From Eubacterium sp. (GTDB taxonomy: Bacteria; Bacillota; Clostridia; Lachnospirales; Lachnospiraceae), in the NCBI GenBank assembly GCA_017459345.1, contig JAFUDC010000022.1, positions 1-32,830 of the forward strand: DNA of 32,830 nt, written 5' to 3'. The notes beneath the pieces are model-generated. The model saw only the letters and a program-made list of their open reading frames with translations. It had not been told where the DNA came from and ran no database searches. Below are positions 14,201 to 18,594 of the stretch, in pieces (positions within the stretch are counted from its first letter, which is position 1; each line of letters opens with the position of its first letter). The position numbers were made by a program, and so were the translations under genes.

Positions 14201-14509
14201 GGCTTTAACATCGAGGCGACCATCGGAACTGCCCTCTTCCTGAAAGACCACGGAATCCGAACCCGGATCCGCCGTAAGCTGTCAGAAGGGAGCACGGAGA
14301 TTCTGGAATCCATCCGGGCCGGCTATGTCAGCTATGTTATCAATACCCGGGCCATCCTGTCCGGGATTCACTACGAGGACGGCGTGGCCATCCGGGCCTG
14401 CGCCATAGAGAACAATATCACCATGCTGACCTCCCTGGATACGGTGAAAGTACTTCTGGATGTGTTAGAGGAGCTGACCATCGGGATATCCACCATTGAT
14501 GCGGGGTGA
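11300..14509 (+). CDS. carB: carbamoyl-phosphate synthase large subunit
   Basis: A 1069-residue subunit that makes carbamoyl phosphate from bicarbonate, two ATP and the ammonia delivered by CarA. The two homologous ATP-grasp halves each start with the family motif ([20 protein letters not shown] and [20 protein letters not shown]). The ATP-grasp signatures [17 protein letters not shown] and [16 protein letters not shown], and the metal-site segments [12 protein letters not shown] and [12 protein letters not shown], are intact. The C-terminal MGS-like allosteric domain (from about residue 935) includes [14 protein letters not shown] and SYVINT. AAGGAGG precedes the ATG. The length is that of a complete enzyme. 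It is followed at once by an intrinsic terminator. Confidence 0.97.
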
Positions 14510-14575
14510 GTGTCAGGCATATAGCAGGGAATATCTACAAATATCCGTGAGTCAGGAAAAAATGGCTAAGGATCG

Positions 14576-14620
14576 CATTTGCCCCCGTTAAAAACAATGA
14601 AACGGCAAATGTTTTCTTTC
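14576..14620 (+). terminator. intrinsic terminator after carB
   Basis: CATTTG and CCGTT (14576-14589, with a short C bulge) pair with AACGG and CAAATG (14601-14611), followed by TTTTCTTTC. It lies about 65 bases after the carB stop and should end the asnB-carAB transcript. Confidence 0.7.
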
Positions 14621-14680
14621 AGCGAAACAAGTCCTATCAGCTATTGATGCCTCATTCATGTAATATAATGCCATTAAAAA

Positions 14681-14733
14681 GAGCCGTGTTAAGGTCGGTT
14701 GGAAACAGCCCCATGCCAGACACGGCTCCTTTT
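14681..14733. terminator. two-way terminator-like structured hairpin, possible small RNA end
   Basis: GAGCCGTGT (14681-14689) pairs with ACACGGCTC (14720-14728). Inside is a second hairpin, GGTTG-GAAA-CAGCC, with a GNRA-type loop. The plus strand continues CTTTTAAA and the minus strand continues with five T, so it could stop transcription both ways. A TATAAT lies at 14664-14669 just upstream, but its -35 partner is poor. It may be a short noncoding RNA or only a terminator; no gene ends here on the minus strand. Confidence 0.45.
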
Positions 14734-15169
14734 AAAGTGGAAAACAAAAAGTTAAGTTATATTTCACTCAAATGGTAAAGATAACGGAAAAATGGCACAG
14801 AAATATTAAGTCCGGAGTAGTAGGAGATGAAAACTCTGTTTAAAGCAGTTTTTATCCACTAATGTAGATAAAAGGCTTCGGAGATCAATGAATCATCCAC
14901 CAAAACAGACGTGAGAATCTAAGATTTACCTATTTATTCTGATTTGTGGTAGATAAAAGCAGGATGATTAATAGAATATATCCGAGATCTACGATAAAAA
15001 TTTCCCAAAAATGAAGTTGTATCTCCCAGAACTCCCTGCAAAGGGATTTTTCAACATCAGTCGCAGTCTCCCGCTTCTAAGCATTGCGTAAGAGGGATTT
15101 ACTATTTCCAATATAAGTGTGAACTGTACCGAAGGGAAAAGAGAGAGTATGAAAACTCGATAAACAGAG
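14734..15169. other. AT-rich noncoding stretch with no recognised gene
   Basis: About 430 bases without a convincing coding frame. A 68-codon minus-strand frame (14989-15195) has no ribosome site and no recognisable family. One small hairpin is visible, TTTTATC with GATAAAA near 14850-14873. The stretch may be a decayed gene or simple spacer between the carAB terminator and the selenium-operon promoter. Confidence 0.5.
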
Positions 15170-15198
15170 TTGACAAGTAGGCCGGTCATGCCCATAAT
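15170..15198 (+). promoter_or_regulatory. promoter of the selenium-related operon
   Basis: A perfect -35 TTGACA (15170-15175) is separated by 17 bases from CATAAT (15193-15198), one mismatch from consensus. Transcription should start near 15205, so the whole repeat array would be part of a leader of about 250 bases. Confidence 0.7.
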
Positions 15199-15242
15199 AG
15201 GTATTGAATTTCATTTTTTATGTGCGATATACCGAAGGAACG

Positions 15243-15430
15243 GGATATGATATATCGAGGAAATGAAACATGATATATCGGAGAAAACAGGATATGATAT
15301 ATCGAGGAAATGAAACATGATATATCGGAGAAAACAGGATATGATATATCGAGGAAATGAAACATGATATATCGGAGAAAACAGGATATGATATATCGAG
15401 GAAATGAGGCATGATATATCGGAGAAAACG
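15243..15430 (+). repeat. four tandem 47-bp repeats in the selenium-operon leader
   Basis: Units lie at 15243-15289, 15290-15336, 15337-15383 and 15384-15430. The first three are identical; the fourth differs at a few bases. Each unit has two similar halves of 23 and 24 bases, each holding ATGATATATCG with the palindrome GATATATC. The half-repeat ATGs fall at 15247, 15270, 15294, 15317, 15341, 15364, 15388 and 15411. Degenerate halves continue on both sides: GATATACCG at 15226, an ATG at 15435, and the GTG at 15459 that probably starts the downstream gene. Each half carries a Shine-Dalgarno-like GAGG or GGAG before the next ATG. The array is therefore a multiplied copy of the operon's own translation-start region. 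It is not a CRISPR: there are no unique spacers. Confidence 0.95.
15270..15414 (+). other. chain of three 16-codon mini-ORFs encoded by the repeats
   Basis: Frames starting at 15270, 15317 and 15364 each read 16 codons (MIYRRKQDMIYRGNET in the first two; EA replaces ET at the end of the third). Each ends in a TGA that overlaps the next ATG as ATGA. The fourth start, 15411, is in the same position but its frame stays open and continues into the desulfurase gene. Each start has GAGGAAA about nine bases upstream. Whether any is translated is unknown; the arrangement fits stop-start translational coupling. Confidence 0.5.
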
Positions 15431-15458
15431 AGATATGATAGACCGGAGGGAACAAGAT

Positions 15459-16601
15459 GTGATTTATCTGGATAATGCTGCCACCACCCGGACGAAGCCG
15501 GGAGAGGTCATTGAGGCAGTCGTATCAGCCATGCAATCCCTGGGCAATGCGGGCCGGGGGGCCAATGATGCATCCCTCATGGCCTCAAGGAGTGTATATG
15601 AGGTGAGGAGTCTTCTGGCGGAGTTCTTTCATGGAGAGGATCCGGCCAGGATTGCCTTCACACAGAACTCTACAGCCAGCCTCAATATGGCGATCAAGGG
15701 AAGCTTGCATCCGGGAGACCATGTCATCTCCACGGTATTGGAGCATAATTCCGTTCTCCGTCCTCTTTATGAGATGGAAGCCAGGGGTCTGGAGCTTACC
15801 CTTCTGCCCTGTGATGAGTACGGAATGGTTTATGCGGCTGATTTTAAGGAGGCTATCCGGGACAATACCCGGGCCATTATCTGCACCCATGCCTCCAATC
15901 TTACGGGAAATGTCCTGGATATCAGGAGTATCGGAGAAATTGCTGCCCGTCATGACCTCCTCTTCATCGTGGATGCATCCCAGACTGCGGGGGTCTTTGA
16001 TATTGATGTAGAGGAAATGCATATTGATATCCTCTGCTTTACAGGGCACAAGAGCCTGATGGGACCTCAGGGAACCGGCGGCATCTATGTAAAGAAGGGG
16101 GTTAAGGTTCGTCCTTTGCTGACCGGGGGCAGCGGGATTAAAACCTTCCATAAGGAGCATCCGGAGGATATGCCTGCGGCCCTGGAGGCCGGGACACTTA
16201 ACGGACACGGGATTGCCGGTCTGGGTGCGGCCATCCGATATATTAATATGACTGGCATGGATCTGATCCGCCGCCAGGAGCAGGATATGGCCTGGTATTT
16301 TTATGAGAATATCCGGGATATTCCGGGAGTACGTGTCTATGGGGATTTTCGGAGTAAAAACCGCTGTCCCATCGTGACCTTTAACATCGGAGATTGTGAT
16401 TCGGGGGTCATCGGAGACGACCTGCTCATGAATTATGATATCTCTGTACGGACAGGCGGCCACTGTGCCCCGCTTATGCATCAGGCACTGGGCACGGCTT
16501 CACAGGGGGCGGTCAGGGTAAGCTTTTCCCACTTTAACAGCACGGAAGAAGCGGATGTCATCATCCGGGCTGTTCGGGAGATGGCAGTGTCTTCTTGTTA
16601 G
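15459..16601 (+). CDS. cysteine desulfurase-like aminotransferase class V protein (EF2568-type)
   Basis: A PLP enzyme of 380 residues from this start. The N-terminus (M/V)IYLDNAATT is the family norm, the PLP lysine is Lys198 in FTGHKSL, and the reactive Cys is Cys336 in RTGGHCAPL. The VDASQTAG segment binds the cofactor. It would remove S or Se from cysteine or selenocysteine. Its place directly before selD and yedF matches the EF2568-type family found beside orphan selD genes, so supply of selenium is the likely role. GGAGGG at 15445-15450 is eight bases before the GTG at 15459. In-frame ATGs at 15435 and 15411 would add 8 or 16 residues that are translated repeat sequence. The start is therefore uncertain, the enzyme identity is not. 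Confidence 0.9.
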   Translation: MIYLDNAATTRTKPGEVIEAVVSAMQSLGNAGRGANDASLMASRSVYEVRSLLAEFFHGEDPARIAFTQNSTASLNMAIKGSLHPGDHVISTVLEHNSVLRPLYEMEARGLELTLLPCDEYGMVYAADFKEAIRDNTRAIICTHASNLTGNVLDIRSIGEIAARHDLLFIVDASQTAGVFDIDVEEMHIDILCFTGHKSLMGPQGTGGIYVKKGVKVRPLLTGGSGIKTFHKEHPEDMPAALEAGTLNGHGIAGLGAAIRYINMTGMDLIRRQEQDMAWYFYENIRDIPGVRVYGDFRSKNRCPIVTFNIGDCDSGVIGDDLLMNYDISVRTGGHCAPLMHQALGTASQGAVRVSFSHFNSTEEADVIIRAVREMAVSSC

Positions 16602-16709
16602 CAAGATATCAGACAGCAATAAAATGATTATAGAGTAATGTGAGAAGTATGAATAATGATGGTAGAAAAGATTTGATAAAGCAGAAAGAATAAAACAGGA
16701 GCATAGGAA

Positions 16710-17753
16710 ATGAAAACGAACACAAGCGACTTCTGCACCGGGGGAGGCTGTACGGCCAAGCTGGGAGCCGGAGTATTAAGCCGGGTCTTATCCCGGCTGC
16801 CCAAAGGGCCGGAGGATGCCAACCTTCTGGTCGGATATGACAGCAAGGATGATGCGGCGGTCTATCGGATTTCCGAGGATACCGCCATTGTCCAGACCCT
16901 GGACTTCTTCCCTCCCATGGTGGATGATCCCTATACTTTTGGCAAGATTGCAGCGGCCAATGCCCTAAGTGACATTTATGCCATGGGTGGAGAAGTGAAG
17001 ACGGCTCTCAATATCGTATGCTTCCCGGAATCCATGGATCTGAATGTCCTGGGGGAAATCATGCGGGGAGGGGCTGAAAAAGTGATGGAGGCCGGAGGAA
17101 CCCTGGTGGGCGGCCACTCTATTGCAGACAGCGGGGTGAAGTATGGACTCTCGGTTATGGGAGTGATTCACCCGGACCGGGTCTATCAGAATAATCAGGC
17201 AGTTCCCGGAGATAAACTGATTCTTACCAAGAAGCTTGGAGTGGGTATCATCTGCACTGCCAACCGGGTGGGAGAGGCCTCGGAGGAAGCCATGGAGGAG
17301 GCTGTTGATTCCATGACAACTCTGAACAAAACCGGGGCTGAGATAAGCAGAAAGTATCCGGTTCATGCCTGCACCGATGTGACCGGTTTCGGCCTTCTGG
17401 GACACTTGCATGAGATGCTTGACGGCAAGCTGTCCTGCAGGATTCAGGCCTGGGATGTTCCGGTGATAAAAGAGGCGCTGAAGCATGCGGATGAATTCCT
17501 GCTCACCGCAGCCGGACAGAAGAACCGGAATCATGTAGGTGATCAGGTTCGTTTTGACCAGGTGAGCTTTGCCATGGAAGAGGTTCTTTTTGATCCCCAG
17601 ACCTCCGGCGGCCTGCTTATTGCGGTGGAAGCCGGCCAGGCAGATGCACTAACCCAGGAGCTTAAGATTGCAGGGCTGCCTGCCGCGGTGATTGGAGAGA
17701 TAATAGACAGGCAGGATATAGAGATTCTGGTTGAGGGCAATAATAGGATATAA
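16710..17753 (+). CDS. selD: selenide, water dikinase (selenophosphate synthase)
   Basis: A 347-residue enzyme that makes selenophosphate from selenide and ATP, the activated selenium donor of the cell. The N-terminal glycine-rich catalytic segment [14 protein letters not shown] has Cys14 where many SelD proteins have Cys or selenocysteine, and Lys17 as the second catalytic residue. The AIRS-type ATP-binding motifs follow: [42 protein letters not shown] and [12 protein letters not shown]. This is the Cys form; no in-frame UGA is needed. AGGAG lies upstream of the ATG. The gap from the desulfurase is 108 bases without a terminator. No selA, selB or selC occurs in the window. Confidence 0.95.
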
Positions 17754-17862: not shown

Positions 17863-18594
17863 ATGATTAAAGTAGATGCTATGGGCGATGCATGCCCGAT
17901 TCCCGTTGTTAAGACAAAAAATGCGATTAAAGAGCTGAAAGGAGCTGCAGGCCAGGTTGAGACTCTGGTAGATAACGAAATCTCCGTGCAGAATCTGACA
18001 AAGATGGCCAGACAGAAGGGGTACGGCGTGCGGTCTGAGAAGCTTGCCGACCAGGAATTTCGCGTTGTCATGGATATTCCGGCTGTGGATGCAGGTTCTG
18101 ATTTGGACCCGGCAAATTCGGCAGCCTCTACTAGCATAGTAGCAGAGGCGAAAGATCGCACAGCAGTCACAGCACCGGGAGCAAAAGATAGCACAGCGGC
18201 AAATCCGACAGCTTCTGCAGCAGAGGAAGGGATCGCCTGTATTCCGGATGGAAGAAAGAATACCGTGGTGGTTATCTCCTCTGATAAGATGGGCGGCGGC
18301 AGCGATGAGCTTGGAGAGGCCCTGCTTAAGAGCTTTCTCTTTGCCCTGTCCCAGCAGGATGACTTACCATCCCTGATTCTATTCTATAATGGAGGTGCAA
18401 AGATGACAGTGGAGGATTCTCCCGCCCTGGAGGATATCCAGTCCATGGAAGCCCAGGGAGTTGAAATCCTGACCTGTGGAACCTGCCTAAACTATTACGG
18501 CCTGACCGAGAAGCTGGCGGTTGGAGAGGTCACCAATATGTATGTGATTGTGGAGAGGATGAGTCAGGCTTCCCTGATTATCAAGCCCTGTTAA
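17863..18594 (+). CDS. yedF: selenium metabolism protein YedF (TusA-like plus DsrE-like)
   Basis: A 243-residue two-domain protein. Residues 1-70 are a TusA-like sulfur/selenium carrier with the CPxP motif at 11-14 (ACPIPVVKTKNAI). An Ala/Ser-rich linker at about 75-125 (SAASTSIVAEAK..., ANPTASAAEEG) is longer than usual for the family. Residues 133-243 form the family-specific DsrE-like domain with NTVVVISSDKMGGGSDELG and a CGTC motif at 205-208. YedF occurs almost only in genomes with selD and is thought to move selenium; its exact reaction is not established. AAGGAG precedes the ATG. A pair of mutually exclusive hairpins is possible in the 109-base gap from selD (about 17810-17840). Confidence 0.92.
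   Translation: MIKVDAMGDACPIPVVKTKNAIKELKGAAGQVETLVDNEISVQNLTKMARQKGYGVRSEKLADQEFRVVMDIPAVDAGSDLDPANSAASTSIVAEAKDRTAVTAPGAKDSTAANPTASAAEEGIACIPDGRKNTVVVISSDKMGGGSDELGEALLKSFLFALSQQDDLPSLILFYNGGAKMTVEDSPALEDIQSMEAQGVEILTCGTCLNYYGLTEKLAVGEVTNMYVIVERMSQASLIIKPC

Follow-up and report, generated by a model that had tools for sequence, protein, structure and literature searches.

A tandem array of Shine-Dalgarno and start-codon units, apparently multiplied from a gene's own start region, lies before a selenium operon and may form a translationally coupled leader

The window (the whole 32,830-nucleotide stretch of DNA that was analysed) is one entire contig of a 2.96-Mb draft genome that consists of 188 contigs and is 97.38% complete. 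On its forward strand, a tandem array is situated between carAB, with carB ending at position 14509, and a selenium operon. The first gene of this operon (15459..16601) begins with the codons GTG ATT TAT and encodes a cysteine desulfurase or selenocysteine-lyase-like protein, which scored 419.7 bits against TIGR01977 (cut-off, 377) when the frame was translated from the ATG at 15411. Downstream lie selD, encoding selenide water dikinase (16710..17753; TIGR00476, 402.5 bits; cut-off, 125), and then a gene for a yedF-like selenium metabolism protein (17863..18594; TIGR03527, 208.2 bits; cut-off, 110). Five records with close homologues carry the labels Lachnospiraceae or Blautia, so the organism is probably a member of the Lachnospiraceae. 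The operon fits the selenium-cofactor trait of molybdenum hydroxylases set out in the available part of a source in which TIGR03527, selD, and TIGR01977 genes are adjacent as EF_2566-2568 in Enterococcus faecalis (PMC2276186).

Tandem Repeats Finder (TRF) called the array at 15239-15440 with a period of 47 (4.3 copies, 96% matches, score of 369) and, in a second call, at 15244-15468 with a period of 24 (9.5 copies). Alignment on the start codons placed the half-units at 15224, 15247, 15270, 15294, 15317, 15341, 15364, 15388, 15411, and 15435, each 23 or 24 bases from the one before; the series continues in register with the GTG of the desulfurase gene at 15459. TRF and the alignment thus agreed with the first-pass annotation, which had described half-repeats 23 or 24 bases apart from 15224 to that GTG. 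Its further statement that every half-unit holds an ATG followed by the same motif was correct for the eight half-units that TRF, the alignment, and a motif count resolved as four 47-base dimers (15247..15434); each of these contains ATGATATATCG plus a GAGG or GGAG core for the next start. It did not apply to the diverged first half-unit (15224..15246), which lacks an ATG of its own and is read in frame from an ATG at 15220 (without a Shine-Dalgarno sequence [SD]) into the following unit, or to the last one at 15435, which reads ATGATAGACCG. The exact 11-base ATGATATATCG motif has no further site in the window; when as many as two mismatches were allowed, 14 sites were counted, which is no excess over shuffled sequence (mean, 9.71; 14 reached in 18 of 100 shuffles). 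The 47-base periodicity is perfect across 15243-15407, and because this 165-nt tract exceeds a read length of 150 nt in a draft assembly, the number of identical dimers is uncertain. On the minus strand, an 89-codon frame (15186-15455) runs antisense to nearly all of the array; it is repetitive and probably a by-product.

The unit that is repeated has the anatomy of a translation start. A GGAGG-like core stands 9 nt upstream of each of ten starts from 15247 to 15459, matching at 5/5 positions before the native GTG, at 4/5 before eight starts, and at 3/5 before 15247; at the same offset, only 24 of the 754 other plus-strand ATGs in the window reach 4/5. Since the units are copies of one another, these ten observations amount to about three independent ones (one for each of the two types of half-unit and one for the native start). 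The native SD core, GGAGG at 15445..15449, has the strongest anti-SD pairing among the starts of the array region, at -10.6 kcal/mol. The corresponding values were -5.9 or -6.6 kcal/mol for the regular array units, -7.3 at 15247, -9.0 at 15411, and -2.0 at the ATG at 15220, each being the best match anywhere in the 22 nt upstream of the start to anti-SD letters that we presumed for this organism. The array SDs are modest in strength: among 12 gene starts examined elsewhere in the window, 6 pair more strongly than -6.6 kcal/mol, and 22.7% of 752 other ATGs reached -6 kcal/mol. As a matter of anatomy, the proposal that each GAGG or GGAG stretch serves the next ATG stood up, as did the view that what was expanded is the SD plus start codon, which has kept its register with the real start and its 9-nt spacing. 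These results, with the comparisons given below, support the conclusion that the array multiplies the start region of the gene itself, comprising the SD, spacer, start codon, and first codons.

When the array was read as translated sequence, four mini-ORFs were found in series: mini-ORF 1 (15220..15273; 17 codons, MCDIPKERDMIYRGNET), which has a second start at 15247 and a TGA that overlaps the ATG at 15270 as ATGA; mini-ORF 2 (15270..15320; 16 codons, MIYRRKQDMIYRGNET), whose stop overlaps the ATG at 15317; mini-ORF 3 (15317..15367; 16 codons, with the same peptide, MIYRRKQDMIYRGNET), whose stop overlaps the ATG at 15364; and mini-ORF 4 (15364..15414; 16 codons, ending in EA), whose stop overlaps the ATG at 15411. 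The ATGA overlaps are thus located at 15270, 15317, 15364, and 15411. Frames opened by the unit ATGs from 15247 to 15388 close after 8 or 16 codons, and only 15411, 15435, and 15459 read into the gene. The last two half-units (15411..15458) carry ATGs in frame with the desulfurase, and no stop intervenes, so that these 48 bases are open into the gene and starts at 15411 and 15435 would lengthen the protein by 16 and 8 residues, respectively. Both the ATGA-coupled mini-ORF relay and the in-frame upstream starts are new relative to the first-pass annotation. The overlaps are no proof of selection, because they follow automatically from an ATGA and a period that is 2 modulo 3; an arbitrary period has about a one-in-three chance of yielding ATGA coupling, and the dimers are so nearly identical that the sequence carries no readable signal of selection. 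A second set of ATGs (15263, 15310, 15357, and 15404), each with a GAGG only 2 nt upstream, probably does not serve for initiation; translation from 15404 would extend for 23 codons and overlap the start of the gene. At 15457-15462, an ATG followed by a TGA forms a one-codon frame that overlaps the native GTG.

All of the mini-ORF stops are TGA, and we considered selenocysteine readthrough of these codons, given the operon that follows. YqeB was found in the genome (314.7 bits; cut-off, 220). SelB did not exceed its cut-off in the 97.38%-complete draft (best, 182.9 versus 242.25 bits), and none of the 150 tRNA-Sec candidates scored, of 241, reached the gathering score (best, 40.2; required, 47). 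Since YqeB passes and both SelB and the scored tRNA-Sec candidates fall below their cut-offs, decoding of the mini-ORF UGA codons as selenocysteine is unlikely, and this reading was set aside.

To trace the array to its source, the native start was compared with the array unit. The block 15435-15478 (the last half-unit plus the first 20 nt of the gene) aligns with the unit without gaps, 32 of the 44 positions being identical, and the best other 44-nt window reached 30/44 among 3,032,306 windows on both strands of about half of the genome, with the array masked. Because this block contains the last half-unit itself, the coding part offers a stricter test; here GTGATTTATCTGGATAATG and ATGATATATCGAGGAAATG share 13 of 20 positions. 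Among 1165 other gene starts, which a simple rule had selected in ORFs of 100 or more codons, 13 matched at 13/20 or better, 4 matched codons 2 to 4 at 6/7, and a single one did both. The native start thus qualifies as a diverged copy of the unit, as had been claimed. Leaders of 420 nt were then compared for 23 of the 35 loci of the gene family, the locus described here being one of the 23; one relative (L022) was excluded since its start could not be placed, leaving 21 homologous leaders. By eye, none of the 21 contains an array, and in all 21 the protein begins with M-I-Y or V-I-Y at the corresponding place, two of them (L007 and L046) with the exact ATGATATATC. Since relatives without the array share this beginning, comparison of the sequences indicates that the gene start is ancestral and the array derived. 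The conclusion that the array arose when the start region of the gene itself was multiplied is well supported, and we regard it as highly probable. A tandem duplication of the desulfurase initiation region would first have given the repeat of 23/24-base half-units, after which the 47-base dimer would have been repeated recently; the palindrome CGATATATCG may have aided slippage. A phage, a plasmid, and a dispersed repeat were each rejected as the source of the array, as 15200-15480 had no match in phages and plasmids and the four exact genome-wide sites of a 15-base unit are all within the array.

The array appears to be confined to this genome. When 24 genomes of the genus were searched with an exact two-unit pattern, this genome alone gave a match, with the same outcome for a DNA search, and it was likewise the single match to an exact three-unit pattern among 397 genomes of the family; diverged arrays lie beyond the reach of exact patterns. 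Recurrence within the genome was examined in 141 stretches (1,522,216 bases including the window, or about half of the genome) by scanning for genes in which the SD plus start is repeated 15 to 66 bases upstream. The first scan, of 1219 ORFs, gave 10 matches at 21/28 or better, consisting of the present array and nine others that were judged by eye to resemble coding repeats or satellites in period, unit, or place. That scan overlooked the case at L162, which was recovered by a second scan that allowed one indel (1361 ORFs, 1439 site pairs) and gave 5 matches at 15/21 or better. Five pairs scored at least 17/21, namely two in the array (19 each) and one each at L162, L115, and L185; leaving out the array pairs, 0.14 was expected from shuffled partners, a control that does not preserve local base composition. 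The L185 pair (score of 17) was set aside because the start lies 37 codons inside an open frame, and a pair at L082 (score of 15) is at chance level, with 2.6 pairs expected at 15 or better. At L162:2230-2290 (C109), three copies of a AACACATG start region stand 22 bases apart; the first is without an SD, and the last opens the frame of a 150-residue protein that matched no Pfam family. The homologue of this protein in another genome (G004; 44% identity) is preceded by just one start region. At L115:15365-15415 (C62), GGAAC...GAGCTATGG occurs twice, 26 bases apart, before a protein with VanW, PG_binding_4, and G5 domains, the true start of which may be a later ATG. Judged by these sequences, start-region duplication has probably occurred more than once in this genome.

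Tandem arrays of other kinds are also present in the genome. The 1.52 Mb contains 91 tandem arrays, of which 29 lie outside called ORFs; the array in the window is not one of these 29, probably since it falls within called frames. Intergenic arrays built from an 85-base unit that carries a TGATTCAGTCATA-like motif occur at L079:16378-16672, L126:150-503, L139:1833-2038, and L164:4688-4866, and others, in which the 74-base unit contains complementary arms such as TACTGACACAAT / ATTGTGTCAGTA, occur at L118:12253-12524 and L151:11620-11809. Units of 54 to 64 bases with complementary GATAGAA and TTCTATC arms form arrays at L060:8451-8823, L078:9330-9661, L101:36-138, and L163:17113-17416. Arrays of a 128-base unit are found at L163:17493-17970, L160:14616-15067, and L107:4-337, two of them near a contig end and one adjoining another array. 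At L172:2429-2549, a 36-base unit (3.4 copies), the first bases of which seem to be the stop codon that ends the preceding gene, lies immediately before a gene whose protein starts with MKVLIVGSGGREHAIAW and which we take to resemble purD.

A transcription start downstream of the array would place it outside the transcript. The best of 8 sigma-70-type promoter sites on both strands of 14450-15500 (shuffles: mean, 3.7; standard deviation [SD of counts], 2.1) is an 11/12 match to the consensus, TTGACA-17-CATAAT, at 15170..15198 on the plus strand. A transcript from this site would begin near 15205, and since the best promoter match is just upstream, the array is probably transcribed as a leader. 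A single motif, repeated, accounts for four 9/12 promoter-like sites within the array (the last is at 15411-15439), and these leave some probability to a transcript start downstream of the array, the case that the first-pass annotation had named as a refutation. The predicted leader RNA (15203-15500) folded at -64.2 kcal/mol compared with a shuffle mean of -49.0 (z = -3.8), which was better than all of 200 shuffles. A single dimer forms a hairpin (z = -4.6) with GATATATC in the stem and GAGG mostly in the loop. Unpaired fractions were 0.20-0.28 for the start regions from 15220 to 15411, 0.58 and 0.51 for those at 15435 and 15459, and 0.26-0.80 for the SD regions. The native SD and start were unpaired at 0.53 and 0.49 when folded without the array versus 0.46 and 0.51 with it; because removing the array barely changes this openness, the array is predicted neither to block nor to expose the native site at equilibrium. 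The one Rfam match in 14400-16800 (E up to 1) lies outside the array at 16069-16167, with 18 bits where 40 are needed.

We propose, as something close to an even prospect, that the leader is a natural, translationally coupled multi-start enhancer of the desulfurase gene. In such a leader, a chain of modest ribosome-binding sites would open the four mini-ORFs, each closing in ATGA, and ribosomes loading anywhere would be handed on by termination-reinitiation to 15411, 15435, or the GTG at 15459. Translating ribosomes would unfold the hairpins that partly mask the internal starts, and translation of the operon's first gene would be expected to be higher and steadier. The last three starts lie downstream of the identical dimers, so a change in length would presumably not switch the frame of the gene; since gains and losses of 47 bases fall upstream of these starts, they would grade output rather than turn it on and off. 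Enhancement is supported by an engineered precedent, which gave a 5-fold increase with six copies in the part of the report available (PMC9723656). Also in its favour are the native start standing in register as a copy, the array-free leaders of the 21 relatives, the 9-nt SD spacing at ten starts, the four ATGA overlaps and the in-frame ATGs at 15411 and 15435, the 11/12 promoter match, the stable predicted folding of leader and unit, and the bicistronic design that works in Leuconostoc (PMC5995908). From the same source, it is counted against enhancement that the SD-SD distance here is 23 or 24 nt versus an effective 15 to 21 nt, and that ten SD-bearing starts are present where no gain was seen beyond six. 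The modest array SDs together with the little-changed openness of the native site also count against it, as do the 29 other non-ORF tandem arrays in 1.52 Mb and the fact that most array starts miss the gene and could drain ribosomes. The broader reading, that this is a naturally evolved relay in which the ribosome-binding site and start were copied as ATGA-coupled mini-ORFs, with unit number as a heritable slippage dial and with recurrence in the lineage, is doubtful.

The main rival, and a serious contender, is that the array is a neutral minisatellite, in which slippage copied the start region and the result is tolerated without function, the native SD and start being intact at its end. Tandem arrays number 91 in the 1.52 Mb scanned (29 outside called ORFs), two other genes probably have their start regions duplicated in low copy, the array turned up in none of the other genomes searched, and the outer units have diverged as is usual in tandem arrays. 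Nevertheless, the 9-nt spacing has been retained and the final 48 bases are open into the gene, and it seems unlikely that ten ribosome-binding sites in a leader would be without translational effect. An error of assembly, in the number of units or in the array itself, is scarcely credible as a full account: the perfect 165-nt tract could not be spanned by 150-nt reads and the draft has 188 contigs, but the divergence of the outer units, and the unique sequence that flanks the array on either side, favour a real array and confine the doubt to the number of dimers.

Regulation by other means was judged far less probable than translational coupling. A leader in which the hairpin chain or a motif binds a protein or senses a signal, such as selenium or temperature, and so gates the starts would accord with folding of leader and unit that is better than in shuffles and with start regions that are mostly paired while the SD regions are 0.26-0.80 unpaired. 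This is nonetheless improbable, because no Rfam family fits in 14400-16800, the element was not found in any relative, and the palindrome follows free from ATGATATATCG. Action on transcription through repeated -10-like TATGAT boxes or regulator sites is very improbable. Although the array holds four 9/12 promoter matches and the region 8 sites versus 3.7 (standard deviation, 2.1) when shuffled, the four are one repeated motif and an 11/12 promoter stands upstream; moreover, a promoter array would need neither register with the start codon nor SD spacing, and 23.5 bases would not make whole helical turns.

If the multi-start leader works as a relay, it is the natural counterpart of a device that synthetic biology has built by hand, and slippage at a start region would be an easy mutational route to graded translation that leaves promoter and coding sequence untouched. 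It makes testable how many serial ribosome-binding sites help before they hinder and whether unit number serves as a dial in bacteria. It would also be a caution for gene callers, the start of the desulfurase being ambiguous among three in-frame codons.

Bacterial leaders may hold variable-number tandem repeats, which can be phase variable or graded. The present array resembles these in that its copies stand in tandem in a leader and include perfect, recent ones, and it differs in that the unit is a ribosome-binding site plus start codon and in that the gene fixes the position of the last three starts, so that changes in length would presumably leave their frame unshifted. The TAACTGA direct repeats of Beggiatoaceae, a 7-base unit with 169 sets in one genome, likewise lie a few bases upstream of starts and have a suggested translational role in the available part of the source, whereas the array here copies one gene's SD and start (PMC4679880). 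Among the literature matches listed (titles and abstract openings, with most subscription journals outside the search), there was no natural tandem array of a ribosome-binding site plus start codon. The first-pass annotation, which knew of no described system of this kind, was thus right about natural systems as far as the literature was searched, and was overtaken on engineered ones by the multiple translation initiation sites that Zhang et al. (2022) built in Bacillus licheniformis (PMC9723656).

In the available part of that report, SD-plus-start repeats raised protein 5-fold at six copies with no further gain beyond six, the start codons were essential, and every start was used, with as many protein bands as ribosome-binding sites; in Escherichia coli, only one start was used. 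SD-SD distances of 15 to 21 nt were effective among the 12 to 24 assayed, an SD-start spacing of 8 nt was best with 7 to 9 nt cited as optimal, and the authors remarked that genes with multiple ribosome-binding sites are rarely reported (PMC9723656). The array shares with the device its tandem SD and start copies in one leader before one gene, its Gram-positive host, and its hairpins with the SD in the loop, and its SD-start spacing is 9 nt at ten starts, with a core of 4-5/5 at nine of them. It differs in being natural rather than synthetic, in its SD-SD distance of 23 or 24 nt, and in that, instead of an N-terminally extended product from every start, only 15411, 15435, and 15459 reach the gene.

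The bicistronic design of Mutalik (2013) reportedly uses a translationally coupled leader cistron. A version that works in Leuconostoc has, in the part of the source available, a 17-residue leader, an internal SD, and a one-base frame shift (PMC5995908). The same anatomy recurs here, with short leader cistrons (16 codons, compared with 17 residues there) that enclose the next SD and a one-base shift between stop and start; there are four ATGA overlaps, three 16-codon cistrons, and one 17-codon cistron from the ATG at 15220. Where the bicistronic design has one such cistron, the array described here has four in series, occurring naturally and copied from the gene's own start.
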